Shown here: piece by piece, positions 20,461 through 29,665 of the stretch | How the letters are laid out: each line of letters starts with the position of its first letter | Numbering within the stretch: position 1 is the stretch's first letter | Assembly: GCA_021847795.1 (NCBI GenBank) | Contig: JAJZPZ010000002.1 | Span: 1-53,909, forward strand | DNA from: Nitrospirota bacterium | GTDB taxonomy: Bacteria; Nitrospirota; Thermodesulfovibrionia; Thermodesulfovibrionales; Dissulfurispiraceae | Length of the DNA: 53,909 nucleotides | Reading direction: 5' to 3' | Position numbers and translations under genes: made by a program | Notes under the pieces: model-generated | Database searches by the model: none | The model's input: only the letters and a program-made list of their open reading frames with translations | Told to the model about the DNA's origin: nothing

Positions 20461-20814
20461 ATGGAAAGCATAAGCATCATCTTAAGGCGGCCGCCGTATG
20501 GGACCATTGATGCGCCTGAAGCCATACGCCACGCGCTTGGTGGAGCAATCGAAGACATGGCAGTCAAGCTGATCCTCCTGGGTGGCGGGACAAACACGGC
20601 CAGAAAGGAACAGGACACATCAGCCACCGCATATCTTAATATGGAGGCAGGTATTAAGGATTGCATCGACATGGGAGTCGAGGTCTACCTCGATAAGTCC
20701 GCGCTGCAGGAAGAACGCCTCGAAGAGAGCGACTTTATCGAGGGGATAACCATAGCGACAGGCCCGGAGATCGCTGCAATCATAGCCGGTACAAATACAA
20801 CCATGATTTTCTAA
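20461..20814 (+). CDS. DsrF/DsrE-family protein
   Basis: ISIILRRPPYGTIDAPEAIRHALGGAIEDMAVKLILLGGG; SD aaggagg; follows DsrE-like genes. Confidence 0.8.
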   Translation: MESISIILRRPPYGTIDAPEAIRHALGGAIEDMAVKLILLGGGTNTARKEQDTSATAYLNMEAGIKDCIDMGVEVYLDKSALQEERLEESDFIEGITIATGPEIAAIIAGTNTTMIF

Positions 20815-20826
20815 AAAGGGGGACCC

Positions 20827-21108
20827 ATGCTGGTGATCATCAAAAGTGCGCCTGATGTGCCTGAAGGCAAACAGGGGGTTAAACTTGCCAGGGATATGGC
20901 TGCTGATATTTGTCTTATACAAAATGCCGTCTATTTTGCACATAGGGAAAGGCTGGAGGGGTTTCCCGGCGCTGTGTATATTCTGGATGAGGATTGCAGC
21001 CTCAGAGGGCTAAATAGCAAACAGCTCAATAAAAATATAAGAAAGCTGGACTATGGCGGCCTTATTGACATAATGGTTAGGGAAGATAAGGTTATCGGAG
21101 CATTTTAA
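20827..21108 (+). CDS. DsrH/TusB-like protein
   Basis: MLVIIKSAPDVPEGKQGVKLARDMAADICLIQNAVYFAH...VYILDEDCSLRGL; ~93 aa in DsrEFH-like order. Confidence 0.75.
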   Translation: MLVIIKSAPDVPEGKQGVKLARDMAADICLIQNAVYFAHRERLEGFPGAVYILDEDCSLRGLNSKQLNKNIRKLDYGGLIDIMVREDKVIGAF

Positions 21109-21127
21109 ACAGATAAAGGGGGGCTCT

Positions 21128-22315
21128 ATGACGAGGATTGTTGTACTTGGGGGATCGTTCGGTGGACTGACGGCAGCGCTTGAACTGCGAAGATTACTCG
21201 GCAAAGAAGCGGACGTTACCGTTATCAGCGATGATGACAAGTTTACTTTTATGCCTTCGCTTCCCTGGCTGATCATGGGGTGGAGGGCGCCGGAGGACAT
21301 AACGCTCGGAGTTGATGGAATCCTCAGGCCCAAGGGGATCAGCTTTATCCATGAGATCGTAAACAGTGTTGATCCTGAGAAATCAAAGGTTGCTACAGCA
21401 AACAAGGAAATATCCTATGACTATCTTGTAATTTCAACCGGGCCGCATCTTGCATTTGACGAGATCCCGGGCATGGGGCCCGAAAAGGGACACACGGACT
21501 GTACCTTTACTCTCGGGCATGCAATCAAGACAGGGCAGACGTGGAAGAAGCTAATCGAAAATCCCGGCCCGGTAGTTATAGGTTCGGCGCAGATGGTAAG
21601 CTGCTTCGGCCCCTCCTATGAGCTTGCATTTGAAATGCATACGGAACTCAAGAGGAGAAAAATGCGGCACAAGGCGCCCATTATTTACCTCACCTCGGAA
21701 CCCTATCTCGGGCATATGGGGGTTGCCGGCCTGGGAAATTCCAGGAGATTTTTCGAGGACGAATTCGCAGCGAGTGAAATCAAAGCTGTTGTAAACCAGG
21801 CCATCGAGGAAATAACGCCGGGGGAAATCAGGCTCAAAGACGGCTCCAGGCTCCCCTTTAAGCTGGCGATGATAGCGCCTCCGTTCAAAGGGGTGCCTGC
21901 GGTTGCTCCGCTCGGGAACCCGCGGGGGTTTATTGCTGTCGATAAAAACTACCGCCACACAAAATACCGGAACATTTTTGCGATCGGGGTTGCAATGGCC
22001 ATAGCGCCGCCGGAGCCCACGCCTGTACCCGTAGGGGTTCCGAAGACAGGATTCATGACAGTTAAAATGGCAAAAACCGCTGCAGCAACAATTTATTCGG
22101 ACATCAAGGGAAGCATCCCGCCTCCTGAGAGCGCACTGGAGGTTGTCTGTCTTATGGACATGGGGCACACGGCAGCGCTCATGAAGGCCTCTCCGGTGCT
22201 TCCTCCAAGGCAGGATTCCTATACGAAAAAAGGCATGTGGGCCAAGTGGCTTAAAGTATCTTTTGAAAAGTATTTCTTATTCAAGATGAAACACGGATTG
22301 AGCAATTTACCATAA
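21128..22315 (+). CDS. FAD-dependent oxidoreductase, sulfide:quinone oxidoreductase-like
   Basis: RIVVLGGSFGGLTAALELRR (GxGxxG-like), VSCFGPSYELAFE, NIFAIGVAMAIAPPEPTPVPVGVPKTGFM. Confidence 0.87.
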   Translation: MTRIVVLGGSFGGLTAALELRRLLGKEADVTVISDDDKFTFMPSLPWLIMGWRAPEDITLGVDGILRPKGISFIHEIVNSVDPEKSKVATANKEISYDYLVISTGPHLAFDEIPGMGPEKGHTDCTFTLGHAIKTGQTWKKLIENPGPVVIGSAQMVSCFGPSYELAFEMHTELKRRKMRHKAPIIYLTSEPYLGHMGVAGLGNSRRFFEDEFAASEIKAVVNQAIEEITPGEIRLKDGSRLPFKLAMIAPPFKGVPAVAPLGNPRGFIAVDKNYRHTKYRNIFAIGVAMAIAPPEPTPVPVGVPKTGFMTVKMAKTAAATIYSDIKGSIPPPESALEVVCLMDMGHTAALMKASPVLPPRQDSYTKKGMWAKWLKVSFEKYFLFKMKHGLSNLP

Positions 22316-22341
22316 CAACAAACAGGAGCAGGAGGTTTTGC

Positions 22342-24669
22342 ATGGGCAGTAAAAGGTTCTCTTTAGTCGAATTCTCAGTAGATCATCCGAGGCTTATTGT
22401 GGCGCTGACCATCATCATAACCCTGGTATTCATGACTCAGTTTCCGAAGATAAAGATAGACACGAACCCTAAAAACATGCTGCCCGCCACCTCAGACGTA
22501 AGGGTGTGGAACGATGCGGTGGACAAGAACTTCGGTCTTTACGAGGATATGATCGTGGTCGGGATGGTGAACGAAAAGGGGATTCTCAACAAGGAGAGCC
22601 TTGCCAGGGTCCAGCGGATAACCGATGAAATACTCAGGCTCAAGGGCGTAGCCGCGCGGGATGTAAACAGCTTCCCGACCATCACCAATGTCACTGCTGA
22701 AAACGGCACGCTCAATGTGGCTCCCCTTATGACCGAGGCGCCGAAAAACGATGGCGAGATAGCCGCGCTCCGGAAGATGCTCTATGACAATCCGCTTTTT
22801 ATGAACCGCATTATTTCCAAAGACGGAAAGACCACCGCCATATACGTCCCCCTTGAGAAGGGCTCGAACGGCAAGGAAGTTGCCGACAAGATACGGGAAA
22901 TCGTAAAGAAAGAAAAAGGCGATGAGAAGTATTATGTCGCAGGCGACCCCGTAGCAAGGGACACCTTCGGCGCCGAGATGTTTAAGCTCATGGCGGTATT
23001 CGCACCGATTGCCGGCATGGTCATGCTCCTGGTGAGATATATCATGTTCAGGGATCTCTTCCTCTCCGTCACGCTGATGATGGACGCAATGATCAGCATC
23101 GTCTGGAGCATGGGGCTTCTGATAGCCCTGGGGTTCCCCGTACATATTATGAGCTCGATGGCCCCTGTCTTTTTGATGGCCATTGCGACAGACAGCATCC
23201 ATATCTTCAATGAATTCTATTTCCGCTTCAGGGAAAAAAAGGACAAAAGAGTCGCAATCATCGAGACCATGCAGGCAGTAAGCCGGCCGGTGCGCTATAC
23301 TGCCTTGGCGACCGCTGCCGGGTTTGCAGTGCTCCTATTCATGAATATAGTCCCGGTAAGGGTCTTCGGAGGCCTTATCGCATTCGGCACGGTGATTTTG
23401 CGGGTTTTAAGCTTCAGCTTTATCCCCGCGATGTTCACCTTTGTAAACGAGGGGAAAATAGCGAAAATCGCCCAGGCCGAAGACATCGAATCGAGCAGGA
23501 CATCACAGTTTCTTAAAAAACTTGCCGGACTGGGGATTCATAACCCGAAGGCAACGGTACTTGTCGGGCTGCTGCTTTTTGTCATAGCGAGTGTAGGTAT
23601 ATCAAAAACAGTGGTCAACAACAACATGGTAGGGTGGTTCAAGAAAAACAGCGATATCCGTGTTGCCGATACGGTCATGAACCAGTCGCTCGGAGGCACA
23701 TCTCTGGGGTATGTCGTAGCGCTGTCGAAGGAAGAGGACTTTATTAAAACCCCCGGCGCAATGCGTTATATTGAAGGTCTCCAGCGGCATCTTGAAAAGC
23801 TGCCGGTGGTCGGCAAGACGACTTCGGTAGTCGACTATGTAAAGAGGATAAACCGCGTCATCCATGATGATGATCCGGCATACGACAAAGTGCCCGACAC
23901 CAAAGAGATGATAGGGCAATACCTCTTCCTCTTCAGCATGTCGGCAAAGCCCTCGGATCTCGACAACGTGGTCGATTATCCATTCAAGAAGGCAAATATC
24001 TGGGTGCAGCTTAAGACCTGGGATGCACGGGCTATGGGAAAAGTCATCGAGGCGGTATCCGAGTATCAAAAGGCCAACCCTATCCCAATGGAATTCAAGC
24101 CGGCCGGCATCGCCTATTTCAATCTTGTCTGGAATCACGAAGTGCTGTGGGATATGGTGAAGGGGTTTGTCCTCGCCTTAATAGTTGTTCTGGCGATTCT
24201 TGCACTTGATTTCCGGTCCGTAAAATGGGCGATAGTCGGATACACCCCCCTTCTGTTTACAATCTTTCTCATATACGGAGTTATCGGCTATACGGGCAAG
24301 GATTTCGATATGCCGATATCGGTGCTTTCCTGTCTTTCGCTCGGCATGGCCGTGGATTTCGCCATTCATTTTGTGAGCAGGTTCAGGCAGAGGCTGGCGG
24401 AAGTCAAGGCTTCGGAGGGCAAGGCCCCCAATGAAGCAGCAGTGGCTGATGCGCTCTTATGGACAGCTGCGCGACCGGGCAAAGGGATAATGCGCAATGC
24501 AGTGCTTTTCGCGGCATCCTTTGCCGTCATGATCTTTGCGCCGCTTACGCCTTACATAACGGTCGGCGCCTTCATTGTCAGCATGATGCTGTTGAGTGCG
24601 GTGATGACGATAATTTATCTTCCCGCACTGATCACACTACTGCAAAAAACCCTGCTCAAGGAAGCATAA
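22342..24669 (+). CDS. RND/MMPL-family transporter
   Basis: Two SSD/MMPL-type TM bundles; ATDSIHIFNEFYFRFRE, SLGMAVDFAIHFVSRFRQR. Confidence 0.9.
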   Translation: MGSKRFSLVEFSVDHPRLIVALTIIITLVFMTQFPKIKIDTNPKNMLPATSDVRVWNDAVDKNFGLYEDMIVVGMVNEKGILNKESLARVQRITDEILRLKGVAARDVNSFPTITNVTAENGTLNVAPLMTEAPKNDGEIAALRKMLYDNPLFMNRIISKDGKTTAIYVPLEKGSNGKEVADKIREIVKKEKGDEKYYVAGDPVARDTFGAEMFKLMAVFAPIAGMVMLLVRYIMFRDLFLSVTLMMDAMISIVWSMGLLIALGFPVHIMSSMAPVFLMAIATDSIHIFNEFYFRFREKKDKRVAIIETMQAVSRPVRYTALATAAGFAVLLFMNIVPVRVFGGLIAFGTVILRVLSFSFIPAMFTFVNEGKIAKIAQAEDIESSRTSQFLKKLAGLGIHNPKATVLVGLLLFVIASVGISKTVVNNNMVGWFKKNSDIRVADTVMNQSLGGTSLGYVVALSKEEDFIKTPGAMRYIEGLQRHLEKLPVVGKTTSVVDYVKRINRVIHDDDPAYDKVPDTKEMIGQYLFLFSMSAKPSDLDNVVDYPFKKANIWVQLKTWDARAMGKVIEAVSEYQKANPIPMEFKPAGIAYFNLVWNHEVLWDMVKGFVLALIVVLAILALDFRSVKWAIVGYTPLLFTIFLIYGVIGYTGKDFDMPISVLSCLSLGMAVDFAIHFVSRFRQRLAEVKASEGKAPNEAAVADALLWTAARPGKGIMRNAVLFAASFAVMIFAPLTPYITVGAFIVSMMLLSAVMTIIYLPALITLLQKTLLKEA

Positions 24670-24821
24670 GGGTCGGCTTGCTTATGGAGGCGGCGGACTC
24701 GTACGCACATAGGAGTTTTATCCGACCCGGCAGGCATACTATATCCCCGGGGGAATTCCCGATGGGAGCTTTTGAGATTTGCATGAACATGAAAAAAAGA
24801 ATTTTAAGAGGAGGATCTAAA

Positions 24822-25646
24822 ATGGTTCCGGATGGGAAAAATAAAAAAGCATGCATCTCGCTGGTAATTATGGTTGTGTTTCTGCTGATGTCGGGTGTTT
24901 TTGAAGCACGTGCCATAACGCCGAACGAGGTGATGAAAAAGTCTCAGGGGGCCTTTCTCTATCAGGGCAAGGATTTCAAGGCACGCGTTATGATGAAACT
25001 GATAAGCAAGGGCGGACAGGAAAGGGTAAGGGAACTCACCATGCTGAGGAAGAATTCCGGAGAAGTCGGAGGCAACCAGAAATACTTCATCTACTTCTAC
25101 CAGCCGGCCGATGTAAAGGACATGACCTTTATGGTTTACAAATATCAGGGGAAAGATGCCGACAGGTGGCTTTATGTTCCGGCAATCAACATGGTAAGGA
25201 GGATCGCCGCCCGGGATAAATACTCCAGCTTTGTGGGCTCCGACTTCACCTATGAGGACGTCTCCGGACGGAACCTGGAAGACGATACTCATGCCCTGGT
25301 CAAAGAGGAAAAGGTCGGGGGAAAAGATTGTTATGTAGTCAAAAGTACGCCGAAGGTACAGGATGTGGATTACAGCTACAAGCTCTCCTGGATAGATAAA
25401 ACCAATTTCCTGCCCCTTAAAGAAGAGTATTATGACCGTCGCGGTGAGCTTTACAAGTTATTTTCCGCTGATGAAGTCAAGGAGGTCAAAAGCATCCCTA
25501 CCGTGACCAAAAGGACCATGAAGAATCTCCAGAGCGGTCACAGGACCGAAGTCAGCTATTCGAAAGTCGACTACAATATCGGGATTGAAGACAGTCTCTT
25601 TTCAGAGAGATACCTCAAGCAGCCGCCGAAGAGATGGATTAAATGA
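24822..25646 (+). CDS. outer membrane lipoprotein-sorting-like protein (LolA-like fold)
   Basis: Signal peptide; ITPNEVMKKSQGAFLYQGKDFKARVMMKLISKGGQERVRELTMLRKN, DRWLYVPAINMVRRIAARDKYSSFVGSDFTYEDVSGR; SD gaggagg before 24822. Confidence 0.85.
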   Translation: MVPDGKNKKACISLVIMVVFLLMSGVFEARAITPNEVMKKSQGAFLYQGKDFKARVMMKLISKGGQERVRELTMLRKNSGEVGGNQKYFIYFYQPADVKDMTFMVYKYQGKDADRWLYVPAINMVRRIAARDKYSSFVGSDFTYEDVSGRNLEDDTHALVKEEKVGGKDCYVVKSTPKVQDVDYSYKLSWIDKTNFLPLKEEYYDRRGELYKLFSADEVKEVKSIPTVTKRTMKNLQSGHRTEVSYSKVDYNIGIEDSLFSERYLKQPPKRWIK

Positions 25647-26977
25647 AAAAACAGTATCCGGAAGGCAGAAGCCGGGGCACGGAGAACAGGTTTTATTTTA
25701 CCGCGGACCTGTTTTCCGTCTTACGCGCCCTGCCCCCCGGCTTCTGTCTTCTGTCCGTTGTCTTCTGCTTTCTGGTGTTTTCGGACGTTGCATACGGGAT
25801 CGATACATCTGTGCATGGATTCCTGCAGGGCAACTACTCAATGGACACTGCCGCAAGGAACCCCGACGGCGGCAACTTCAAATGGGCTGAAGAGCGGTTC
25901 CAGCTGAAACTTGATGCCTCGAAAGACCCCTTCCACCTCATGGTGAAGACCGATGCATTTTACAAGCATAACGATGAAAAAGGAGATGTTGAATTAAGAG
26001 AAGGCTATATTGATTACACTGCGGGCAAATGGGATGCAAGGGTCGGAAGGCAAATCATTACGTGGGGGCTTGGGGATTTATTGTTCATCAACGACGTGTT
26101 CCCCAAAGACTACGAGGCTTTCTTTTCCGGCAGGCCGCTCGAATACTTGAAAAAGGGCATTGATGCAGTAAAGGTCGGCCTCTATCCGGAGTTTGCATCT
26201 TTTGAGCTTATCGTTGCACCTTTTTTCGAGCCGAACCGTTTCCCTGACCCGAAAAGATTCCGGCTCTTCGACCCGATGCCGGGAGTAACGGACAGGGAAA
26301 AAGCAAAACCGGCAACAAGCCTCGAAAACACCGAAGCGGCGGTGAGGGCGTACAGGGATGTGGCAGGCTTCGATGCCTCCGTGTATTTCTACAGAGGATT
26401 TTGGAGGCAGCCTTCCATGCTTCCCGACAACCTCCTGGCGCCTTCCCGAATAGCTCTTTTCTACCCTGAACTCAACGTTTACGGGGCAAGCCTTCAGGGG
26501 AGAGCCCTGGACGGCGTGATTAGCCTTGAAGGGGGCTATTATGACTCAAGGCAGGACAGAAAAGGCACAGACTCCCTCATACCGAATTCCCAGACAAGAT
26601 TCCTGGCGGGGTATCAACGGCAGCTGTGGGAGGACTTTACGGCAGGGCTTCAGTATTACGGCGAATACATGCATGATTATGGGGCATACAAAAAAAACCT
26701 GCCGGCAGGATTCCCGCAGGAGAAGAAACTGCACCAGCTTACAACTATACGGCTGACCCAATTCCTGATAAACCAGACACTGAAGCTCTCGCTTTTCACT
26801 TTTTACAGCCCCTCTGACAGGGACTACATGCTGAATCCCGAGATGAAATATAACTTCACCGACCATATATGGGCGGCCCTTGGGGGCAACATTTTCGGGG
26901 GCGGAAAGCCATGGACCCAGTTCGGGCAGCTGGACAAGGATGATAACGTTTATCTCCAGACGAGATACGAGTTTTAG
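25643..26977 (+). CDS. outer membrane beta-barrel-like protein (DUF1302-like)
   Basis: Signal peptide ending DVAYG, alternating-pattern strands, C-terminal YLQTRYEF with terminal Phe. Confidence 0.75.
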   Translation: MKKQYPEGRSRGTENRFYFTADLFSVLRALPPGFCLLSVVFCFLVFSDVAYGIDTSVHGFLQGNYSMDTAARNPDGGNFKWAEERFQLKLDASKDPFHLMVKTDAFYKHNDEKGDVELREGYIDYTAGKWDARVGRQIITWGLGDLLFINDVFPKDYEAFFSGRPLEYLKKGIDAVKVGLYPEFASFELIVAPFFEPNRFPDPKRFRLFDPMPGVTDREKAKPATSLENTEAAVRAYRDVAGFDASVYFYRGFWRQPSMLPDNLLAPSRIALFYPELNVYGASLQGRALDGVISLEGGYYDSRQDRKGTDSLIPNSQTRFLAGYQRQLWEDFTAGLQYYGEYMHDYGAYKKNLPAGFPQEKKLHQLTTIRLTQFLINQTLKLSLFTFYSPSDRDYMLNPEMKYNFTDHIWAALGGNIFGGGKPWTQFGQLDKDDNVYLQTRYEF

Positions 26978-27089: not shown

Positions 27090-27353
27090 CTACATCATTT
27101 TTAATGGAAACCGTCCGGGGTGTTCTATAATCTCAATGGTAAGATCTATATCTAAATCCGGCCAGTAAAAATGTCCGGGATGAGGTTGCTCAATATTAAG
27201 AATCTTTCCGACCGGCGCATCTTTAAACCAGGGGAAATCCTCATATGACATAAACAACTCTTTGTCCCCGGCCAAAAGCCACACTCCATTGCCGGAAATA
27301 TGTGTAATCTCAACCCCTGCGGTGGTTTTCCCAGGCGGTTTTAAACTCGTCAT
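27090..27353 (-). CDS. DUF2442 domain protein
   Basis: VEITHISGNGVWLLAGDKELFMSYEDFPWFKDAPVGKILNIEQPHPGHFYWPDLDIDLTIEIIEHP. Confidence 0.85.
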   Translation of the reverse strand: MTSLKPPGKTTAGVEITHISGNGVWLLAGDKELFMSYEDFPWFKDAPVGKILNIEQPHPGHFYWPDLDIDLTIEIIEHPGRFPLKMM

Positions 27354-27549
27354 AATGCACCTCGATGATGTTTTCTATTTCCTTTAACTGCACCCGTGAT
27401 AGGTTGTGATTTTTCGCCAACTCAATACCCGGGGTCAACCAGAACTTAGCTTCTCCGTCTGAACACACGACATGAACATGCATTCGGGTCTCCTCACGGG
27501 AGAAGAAAAAGAAGCGATACCCTTTTTCTCTTAATATTGTCGGGCTCAT
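27310..27549 (-). CDS. DUF4160 domain protein
   Basis: MSPTILREKGYRFFFFSREETRMHVHVVCSDGEAKFWLTPGIELAKNHNLS. Confidence 0.88.
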   Translation of the reverse strand: MSPTILREKGYRFFFFSREETRMHVHVVCSDGEAKFWLTPGIELAKNHNLSRVQLKEIENIIEVHYDEFKTAWENHRRG

Positions 27550-27624
27550 CTGTTGGTTATATTTTAACGAATAACACTTATTTTTGGTAGCGCAATGCAC
27601 AATTCAAGACGCAACCCCATTTGT

Positions 27625-27651
27625 CCCTTTACCTCCTTCAAGGTAAAAGGG
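27625..27651. terminator. putative hairpin terminator for the minus-strand arsR operon
   Basis: ccctttacct-ccttca-aggtaaaaggg, followed by another G/C hairpin. Confidence 0.5.
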
Positions 27652-27681
27652 GGAGGCATTTGCCCCCCCGTGTGCTTTTAA

Positions 27682-27795
27682 CTACTTCTTGGCATCCGTA
27701 CATCCGCAACCGCATCCGCAGCCGGATGTCTTGATTTTACGTACAACAGTGCTTGATGATTCGCTTTTTTTCGTGTCTTTTTTAGTATCTGCCAT
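27682..27795 (-). CDS. 37-aa Cys-rich peptide with CGCGCGC motif
   Basis: MADTKKDTKKSESSSTVVRKIKTSGCGCGCGCTDAKK*; SD aggagg upstream on the minus strand; below the ORF-track length cutoff. Confidence 0.75.
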   Translation of the reverse strand: MADTKKDTKKSESSSTVVRKIKTSGCGCGCGCTDAKK

Positions 27796-27797
27796 GA

Positions 27798-27989
27798 TTA
27801 TTCACCTCCTTTCCCGGCATTATCAGCCGACTTTAATTTAGTGTTGACTGCTATAAGTTCCGTCTTCAGCTTCTTTTTGTATTCCTTTAAATTTATAAGC
27901 AGTTCCTCTTTGCCCGGCGTTTCCCCTCCACGGCCAGACGTGCAGGCACAATCTCCTTCGGCTCCTGTCGGAATATTTCTTATGCACAT
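27798..27989 (-). CDS. 63-aa Cys/coiled-coil small protein related to the ArsR C-terminal tail
   Basis: CACTSGRGGETPGKEELLINLKEYKKKLKTELIAVNTKLK resembles ArsR tail CACGCELGRKRKSSETKEALSEYKKQLEKELKQVEEKIK; SD AGGAGG. Confidence 0.7.
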   Translation of the reverse strand: MCIRNIPTGAEGDCACTSGRGGETPGKEELLINLKEYKKKLKTELIAVNTKLKSADNAGKGGE

Positions 27990-28048
27990 GGACGCCCTCC
28001 TATTAAGTTTATTCGCATTTACTTATATTAAAAAGAAAAAAATACGGG

Positions 28049-28444
28049 CTATTCTCCCTTTTTTTCACATGCTTTGATCTTTTCTTCCACCTGTTTTAAT
28101 TCTTTCTCAAGCTGTTTCTTATACTCCGACAGGGCCTCTTTCGTTTCGGAGGATTTCCTCTTCCTGCCGAGTTCGCAGCCGCAGGCGCACACTTTTTTCA
28201 ATCCCTGCTGATATTTGTCCAGCTTGTCTTTGTTCAACGAATAATAAATGTAATAGCCTTTTCGTTCATCCGAAACCAGGCCTGCCTGTTTCATTATCCG
28301 GAGATGCTGGGATACTGCGGACTGGCTGACTCCCAATGCCTCGGCTATCGTATTTACAGAAAGCGGCCCCGCCTTGAGCAGTTCAATAATTTTTATTCTG
28401 CTTTCAACCGACAGCACCTTGAAAGATTCCGCCTCGGTTTTCAC
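28049..28444 (-). CDS. ArsR-family regulator with Cys/coiled-coil C-terminal extension
   Basis: SVESRIKIIELLKAGPLSVNTIAEALGVSQSAVSQHLRIMKQAGLVSDERKGYYIYYSL; CACGCELGRKRK tail; GTG start. Confidence 0.9.
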   Translation of the reverse strand: MKTEAESFKVLSVESRIKIIELLKAGPLSVNTIAEALGVSQSAVSQHLRIMKQAGLVSDERKGYYIYYSLNKDKLDKYQQGLKKVCACGCELGRKRKSSETKEALSEYKKQLEKELKQVEEKIKACEKKGE

Positions 28445-28455
28445 ACGAAACTCCT

Positions 28456-28477
28456 TAAGTATAATTTAATATACTTA
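28456..28477. promoter_or_regulatory. putative ArsR operator palindrome
   Basis: TAAGTATA-atttaa-TATACTTA, perfect 8-bp arms, 12 nt upstream of the arsR GTG. Confidence 0.6.
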
Positions 28478-28618
28478 TACGCTACATCGGTTGAAACAAA
28501 ATGTCAAGTTTTTTCGGAGCCGGAGGTGGAAACTTCAGATTTACATTCACCTTTCACTTTTACAATCCATTCCTTATAATTAAACATTACAGCCACGAAG
28601 GCAAAGGAGGCAACAGGA

Positions 28619-29665
28619 GTGGATATTAAGCTTACGGAACTTTCAAGCTGCGCGGGTTGAGCGGCGAAATTCAGTCCTTCGGACCTGTCCCACGTGCTGG
28701 GGCAGCTACCTAAAATCATTGATCCGAACGTGCTTGTGGCCACTGCCAATGCGGATGATGCCGGAGTTTACCGCATAAGCGATGATATTGCGGTTGTCCT
28801 AACCACCGACTTTTTTACGCCTATTGTCGACGACCCTTACTGGTTCGGCGCAATTGCCGCGGCAAACGCGCTTTCTGATGTATACGCCATGGGCGGCAAG
28901 CCGGCAGCTGCATTGAATATTGCCATGCTCCCGAACAATCCCGATTTTTTCCCGCTGCTGAAAAAGATCATGCAGGGCGGCATAGACAAGATGGCCGAAG
29001 CAGGGGTGCCTATCATAGGGGGGCATACCATAAGGGATAAAGAGCCGAAATATGGGTTTACTGTTATGGGAACCATCCACCCTGACAGGATTCTCGACAA
29101 CTCAAAGGCCCGGCCCGGAGATGCCCTGGTCCTCACAAAACCTATTGGAACCGGGATTATTGCAACCGGCGTAAAAGCAGGCCTCTGCAGCAGTGCCGTA
29201 ATAGAGTCCTTCACGCAGACGATGGCAACGCTCAACAAAAGGGCCGGCGAACTCATGCTCGAGATCGGGGTCAGCACGGCAACGGACATAACAGGGTTCG
29301 GACTTCTCGGGCATCTTCATGAAGTGCTTTCCGCAAGTGACTGCCGGGCGCAACTCTCTGCAAGCCGCATGCCCTTTTTCGAAGAGGCTGTCAGGCTTGC
29401 CGGGATGAATGTCATTCCCGGAGGCACCATAGACAATTTCAAAAACTACAGCCAATACATTGAGTGGAGCGAAGATGTGCCGGACACGCGGAAGATATTG
29501 ATGAATGATGCCCAGACATCCGGCGGACTTCTCATCTTTGTGCCGGCAGATAAAAAGGATGCGCTCATTGGCGCCCTTCGGAAGGAAAACATCCCGGCAG
29601 CTCATGTAGGGGATGTCGTCGATAAAGGCTCGCGCGGCAACAAGCGGATATTCGTGGACGCGTGA
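28619..29665 (+). CDS. selD: selenide, water dikinase; candidate Sec-containing SelD (in-frame TGA 28658-28660)
   Basis: VDIKLTELSSCAG-U-AAKFSPSDLSHVLGQLPKIIDPNVLVATANADDAGVYRI; GTG start at 28619 with SD aaggagg; Sec at the conserved Cys/Sec position. Confidence 0.9.

Follow-up and report, generated by a model that had tools for sequence, protein, structure and literature searches.

An ArsR-family regulator and a small CGCGC peptide make up a conserved operon, a candidate soft-metal buffering system

The window analysed here is a stretch of 53,909 nucleotides from a Nitrospirota bacterium of the Dissulfurispiraceae (assembly GCA_021847795.1, contig JAJZPZ010000002.1, positions 1 to 53,909). 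On its minus strand, between positions 27649 and 28507, lies an operon of three genes encoding an ArsR-family protein, a 63-aa protein with cysteines and a coiled coil, and a 37-aa peptide with a CGCGCGC motif. The first gene (28049-28444, GTG start) specifies a putative repressor of 131 aa that passes the winged-helix tests for HTH_5 (PF01022, E 2.4e-16) and HTH_metalloreg (NF033788, 91 bits against a cut-off of 55). It is preceded by a -35-like TTGACA (28502-28507) and a -10 TATAAG (28474-28479), and the -10 region is overlapped by a 26-mer, operator 1 (28454-28479), which contains a perfect 8+8 inverted repeat, TAAGTATA-N6-TATACTTA as read on the minus strand (28456-28477). At the level of sequence, this overlap between inverted repeat and arsR promoter is the arrangement seen in ArsR/SmtB metalloregulators. 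With a promoter spacer of 22 nt in the window (28474-28507), compared with 16-18 nt in the relatives and 17-18 nt in the close ones, the arsR promoter may be weak here.

Past the arsR stop codon there is a T-tract (T7CT5, 28030-28042), whose T7 ends 10 nt before the core (28004-28025) of a near-palindrome, TAAGTAAATGCGAATAAACTTA, that occupies 28002-28027 between arsR and the small genes (operator 2). The gene for the 63-aa protein (27798-27989, minus strand; MCIRN..CAC..LKEYKKKLKTEL) is followed by that for the peptide (27682-27795, minus strand), whose near-perfect Shine-Dalgarno sequence, AAAGGAGGTGA (27802-27812), overlaps the 3' end of the 63-aa ORF. The four cysteines of the CGCGCGC motif (C26, C28, C30 and C32) are encoded at 27700-27720, and a G+C-rich, terminator- or attenuator-like hairpin follows at 27649-27669 (RNA MFE of 27640-27681, -18.4 kcal/mol, z -2.9). 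The original prediction had described the palindrome, the ArsR protein with its tail, the 63-aa ORF, the 37-aa ORF with its Shine-Dalgarno sequence and the hairpin, and all of them were found in place on the minus strand. It had taken the palindrome for the single operator, however, and had missed operator 2, which is added here together with the T-tract at a fixed distance before it and the CopD-like third gene that relatives carry.

Several neighbours of the operon deserve mention in their own right. A DUF4160 and DUF2442 pair, a small module resembling toxin-antitoxin systems (27090-27600, minus strand), occupies the position that the CopD-like gene has in relatives. On the plus strand, DsrE, DsrH, an SQR-like flavoprotein, an HAE3-type RND protein, a LolA-like/DUF1329 protein and a DUF1302-like barrel are encoded in a row (20461-26977). 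Also on the plus strand, selD (28619-29665) has an in-frame TGA at residue 14 of its GTG-started ORF (..TELSSCAGUAAKF..), and the SelD encoded near the cassette thus appears to be a selenoprotein itself.

The conserved core of the operon is the ArsR gene with the peptide gene, usually joined by a CopD-like gene. Among 61 whole genomes (that of the window and 60 relatives), an ArsR of the cassette type (E below 1e-30) was encoded in 11, the peptide was found in exactly those 11, and neither was found in the other 50; weak peptide matches in this set (E 0.02-0.08) lay mostly inside long frames. In a second set, made up of 80 related loci from the GTDB species set, 75 carry, at most 700 bp downstream of the ArsR gene, a short ORF that encodes CGCGC or a close variant (CxCxC); none of 71 matched segments upstream of ArsR and none of 38 taken around other ArsR genes has one. 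The five exceptions are a locus with a Cys/coil ORF instead (L099), one in which the peptide is frameshifted in an A-run (L083) and three without the peptide (L054, L100 and L111). When 296 genomes of the phylum were searched with the peptide alone, 25 genomes were recovered, and all genuine loci adjoin a CxCxC ArsR gene; the two exceptions were a contig end still showing operator 2 and a spurious match inside a 216-aa frame. Co-occurrence, chosen beforehand as the test on which the cassette would stand or fall, therefore holds for the ArsR-peptide pair in both the loci and the genomes. The original prediction had proposed a cassette of three ORFs; its ArsR and peptide are conserved, but only a subgroup has the 63-aa ORF. 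Nor is the 37-aa ORF decaying in relatives: besides being kept in those 75 loci, it has a dN/dS below 1 in every pair tested (e.g. 0.127/0.514, 0.033/0.252) and is under purifying selection. The hosts belong mostly to the Nitrospirota (Thermodesulfovibrionia), Desulfobacterota and Nitrospinota; the cassette also turns up in single MAGs labelled Actinomycetota, Spirochaetota, Schekmanbacteria and others, and some of these may be mis-binned. No relative of the cassette was found in the viral contigs searched.

The cassette peptides are 28-43 aa long and have 3-4 cysteines. Across 54 homologues only the start Met and the three cysteines of CxCxC (the last three of the window motif) are invariant, and the glycines are nearly so. 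Neither the window peptide nor those of the relatives matched any Pfam or NCBIfam model, the metallothionein models included, and this small, CxCxC-bearing peptide is predicted to bind metal through its thiolates. The exact match of its Shine-Dalgarno sequence to the 16S tail has a median length of 10 nt, 10-11 nt being commonest, compared with a median of 4 for other genes of the same loci, a contrast somewhat inflated because the peptide starts were picked for the best Shine-Dalgarno match. In 69 of 72 loci the 60 nt past the peptide fold into a strong hairpin (MFE below -12 kcal/mol). Both features are consistent with a peptide produced in larger amounts than the product of the next gene, and the peptide is apparently strongly translated.

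A related motif is found in the regulator. In a set of 62 homologues extending to 50% identity, no cysteines of ArsR are invariant except C86, C88 and C90, which form a CxCGC motif (C86-A-C88-G-C90, 28175-28189, minus strand). AlphaFold places this motif in a disordered, low-confidence linker directly after helix alpha5 (residues 72-84). In the window protein one long helix then follows (residues 98-130; 28055-28153, minus strand), forming a coiled-coil tail specific to a subgroup, whose sequence reads VCACGCELGRKRK and then continues as helix. The nearest solved relatives are NmtR, SmtB and CzrA, and when the ArsR profile was aligned to SmtB, C88 was reached at the end of SmtB alpha5, which we take to be the position of the alpha5 metal site of SmtB and CzrA. 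The window ArsR scored 42.9 bits with the BigR model, whose cut-off is 155 bits. As a separate observation, two ArsR-family matches (L030, at G045:C1:126241-126576, and G047:C78:2221-2556) read through one TGA, and may reflect a selenocysteine-containing ArsR or a frame artefact.

The distribution of the 63-aa protein follows the tail of the regulator. All 15 loci with a coiled-coil-tailed ArsR have a Cys and coil ORF, which either separates arsR from the peptide or replaces the latter, whereas only 1 of the 65 loci without the tail has one (L109). This association (Fisher p 2e-15, uncorrected for ancestry) is found in at least two separate lineages. In two loci (L040 and L042) the coil ORF continues in frame into the peptide, making a fusion, and a heptad stretch of the LxEYKxxLxxEL type is common to the ArsR tail and the small coil protein. 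That the 63-aa protein tracks the tail strengthens the idea that the two pair, as a lineage-specific trait; the simplest reading would be a heteromeric coiled coil beside the sensor cysteines. The window protein matched no Pfam or NCBIfam model, DUF5320 included, and the homologues from L103 and L109 reached 14.9 and 19.3 bits against this family's gathering score of 27. Four loci (L103, L105, L109 and L099) encode a variant partner, MCQ..CTCGCCGCGCG..coil, with a sub-threshold resemblance to DUF5320 that may link the cassette to the wider DUF5320 proteins.

In 49 of the 80 loci the third gene encodes a half-CopD protein with 4 TM segments that matches PF05425 above the gathering score (38.6 and 40.5 bits against 32.1), and in 31/80 no CopD was detected. 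Within the whole-genome set, the CopD-like clade (E below 1e-60) occurs in 8 of 11 genomes with the cassette and 0/50 without it; a genome search did not find it in the window genome or its congener. Besides PF05425, the protein matches the C-terminal half of NF033808, likening it to CopD, PcoD and YcnJ, but it is half their size, has 4 TM segments, scores 47 bits against the equivalog cut-off of 195 for NF033808 and is not encoded with copC. Its invariant residues include H13 and H107, and its AlphaFold model (pLDDT 84) matched no fold in the PDB with E below 0.3.

Both operators recur in the relatives. The symmetric motif TATAAGTATATnCGnATATACTTATA, trained on the flanks of the loci themselves, exceeds the 99th percentile of shuffles upstream of 80 of 81 ArsR genes and between arsR and the peptide in 77 of 81, with both operators in 75 of 80 loci. 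Because of this training, it is a genome scan that provides the independent check. When up to one mismatch was allowed, the pattern hit one or both operon sites in every one of 11 genomes, and both in most, while sites outside the operon were no more frequent than those given by a reversed control pattern. The regulon thus looks confined to the operon, and no wider one was found in these genomes. In 60 of 79 scored loci, a -10-like hexamer near or in operator 1 follows an exact TTGACA at 16-18 nt. Runs of at least 6 T occur within 22 nt of the arsR stop in 66/80 loci, compared with 8/378 after other genes. In 54 of 70, 10 or 11 nt separate the end of the run from the core of operator 2. An intrinsic terminator at the T-tract was rejected, as no hairpin lies upstream (median MFE -0.65); a sigma70 promoter at operator 2 is a weak candidate, with mostly 2-3 of 6 matches at -35; and DNA looping between the operators is unsupported, their spacing varying from 341 to 478 bp with no helical phase. 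One explanation would be that ArsR bound to operator 2 stalls RNA polymerase at the U-tract, causing roadblock termination; alternatively, this region may contain a weak, atypical or non-sigma70 promoter.

No description of an ArsR/CGCGC/CopD system was found in the open-access literature, and the cassette is apparently undescribed as a unit. Its closest counterparts combine an ArsR/SmtB regulator with a metallothionein. In bxmR-bmtA of Oscillatoria brevis, the repressor and a small Cys-rich protein share one operon, but BxmR uses alpha3N and alpha5 sites, whereas the cassette ArsR has CxCGC after alpha5; the cassette also differs in its small protein of 28-43 aa outside the Pfam and NCBIfam models, its second operator and its CopD-like third gene. 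In smtB-smtA of Synechococcus and azuR/nmtA of Anabaena, an ArsR/SmtB repressor released by metal acts through inverted repeats on a metallothionein gene, a scheme predicted for the cassette too; there, however, the genes are divergent or unlinked, the operator sequence is another and CopD is missing, while the window peptide matches no Pfam metallothionein model. AfArsR of Acidithiobacillus ferrooxidans likewise has a ligand site of three closely spaced cysteines on a single chain, but it is an As(III)/Sb(III) sensor, and we know of no CGCGC peptide or CopD-like partner for it. CruR (DUF2946) resembles the cassette in that a small Cys-motif ORF precedes a copper-linked membrane gene and the intergenic gap may be regulatory; it differs in that the cassette peptide has neither homology to it nor the CXXC-45-RAPP spacing, and in that the cassette has an ArsR gene of its own. 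Our verdict, by analogy, is that the cassette probably works like an ArsR-metallothionein operon such as bxmR-bmtA or smtB-smtA, though built from unrelated parts, with a peptide outside all family models searched and a different ligand motif in the regulator.

The reading that we favour, to which we give an even chance, is an autoregulated operon for soft-metal buffering, Cu(I) being the likeliest ligand, that consists of a sensor and a mini-metallothionein. An ArsR/SmtB-type dimer would repress its own promoter at operator 1, within which the -10 lies, and the downstream small genes at operator 2. A thiophilic metal would occupy the CxCGC motifs where alpha5 ends, and ArsR would release the DNA. 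The strongly translated CGCGC peptide would then be made in excess and bind metal through its like CxCxC motif, as a minimal metallothionein or chaperone, so that the signal is lowered. In most relatives the 4-TM CopD-like membrane protein would, as the third product, handle transport at the membrane; the window lineage would do without it. In the coil-tail subgroup the Cys/coil protein of about 60 aa would probably pair with the ArsR tail and present metal to, or receive it beside, the sensor cysteines. Repression, metal binding, Cu(I) and the heteromer are what we infer here. The compact, self-regulated thiol or metal cassette first proposed is thus borne out by the three-Cys motif in sensor and peptide, the inseparable pair and operators confined to the operon, but it has two operators and a core without the 63-aa protein. 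Some observations sit less easily with a copper metallothionein: CopD is linked to copper uptake in the literature, a poor fit with derepression by copper, and 3 or 4 cysteines per peptide are few for a metallothionein unless it oligomerises. The lack of a detected CopD in the window genome, which has a CsoR of its own, and in 31/80 loci also speaks against copper, as does the SQR/RND/LolA module near 14 of the 80 loci. The distribution of CsoR and CopA was uninformative as a copper clue, since every one of the 60 relatives has CopA and CsoR is rare with or without the cassette.

Other ligands have to be weighed against Cu(I). A sensor-metallothionein pair of the Zn/Cd/Ni type (SmtB-SmtA-like), with the CopD-like protein as a frequent neighbour only, would suit the kinship with NmtR, SmtB and CzrA and the profile alignment to SmtB, which runs through the end of alpha5, but ArsR has no conserved His/Asp/Glu alpha5 site, only cysteines, and CxCxC favours thiophilic ions, making this unlikely. 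CxCGC could also be a trithiolate metalloid site in an As(III)/Sb(III) (or Hg) sensor, with the peptide scavenging metalloid. In AfArsR, three cysteines close together on a single chain sense As(III)/Sb(III) (PMC11212059), and the three invariant cysteines of the cassette ArsR are likewise clustered after alpha5. The partner conserved in the cassette is CopD-like, however, and the annotated neighbours (not all are annotated) include no arsenic efflux, methylation or reductase gene, so that we consider a metalloid sensor rather improbable. The recurrent SQR/DsrE/RND/LolA/DUF1302 neighbourhood lends a little weight to a sensor of sulfane sulfur, persulfide or thiol redox state, in which cysteines of ArsR and the peptide would be persulfidated or oxidised and the peptide would be a sulfur acceptor or carrier. 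Besides the window, 14 of 80 loci lie within about 6 kb of a member of the SQR-like/DsrE-DsrH/RND/LolA/DUF1302 module, in several orientations; the LolA-like gene of this module, whose apparent character is sulfur or lipid, occurs in 9 of 11 cassette genomes compared with 18 of 50 others, and the hosts include sulfur-cycling lineages. Persulfide sensors of the SqrR/BigR type have one Cys in alpha2 and one in alpha5. Such a sensor is disfavoured because no ArsR cysteine besides C86, C88 and C90 is invariant, leaving no alpha2 partner. Adjacency to the module is also a minority trait (among nine relatives with both cassette and module, the two are adjacent only in the window genome), and the obligate partner clade is CopD-like, all of which makes a sulfur sensor improbable.

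The peptide might instead be a nascent-chain leader like CruR (PMC9426467), with copper on its cysteines during translation controlling termination at the next hairpin and CopD expression. Many peptides do have Pro-Pro after the Cys motif, a strong hairpin follows, and CopD lies about 70 nt downstream. Yet the presence of PP and of CopD are unassociated (Fisher p = 0.81), the gap from Cys to PP is 1-2 residues compared with 45 residues from CXXC to RAPP in CruR, many loci have the peptide but no CopD, and the window peptide has no PP; with no DUF2946 match found among the window and relatives' proteins, we regard such a leader as very unlikely. Membership in the CruR leader peptides, judged by DUF2946, CXXC and a C-terminal RAPP, was rejected.

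Returning to soft-metal buffering, a more specific joint reading, which we hold to be unlikely, is an undescribed system in which operator 2 and the fixed upstream T-tract would form a repressor-roadblock terminator, metal controlling whether transcription continues past arsR into the genes for the peptide and CopD, while the ArsR coiled-coil tail and the Cys/coil protein would form a heteromeric sensor whose small partner loads or titrates metal. Because sensor and peptide carry the same three-Cys motif and always occur together, the cassette most probably represents a minimal soft-metal buffering system of a new kind, with copper the probable metal. It is an operon conserved over several phyla, mostly in uncultured anaerobes, and its central peptide of about 30-40 aa has no family model in Pfam or NCBIfam and is short enough to drop below the usual gene-length cut-offs. 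With a T-tract at a fixed distance from operator 2, a specific hypothesis of roadblock termination can be tested, and sensor and buffer form a minimal, testable pair that shares one metal motif. A 2020 review named BxmR as the single Cu(I)-sensing ArsR; if Cu(I) were confirmed as the ligand, the cassette ArsR would join BxmR as a Cu(I)-sensing member of the family.
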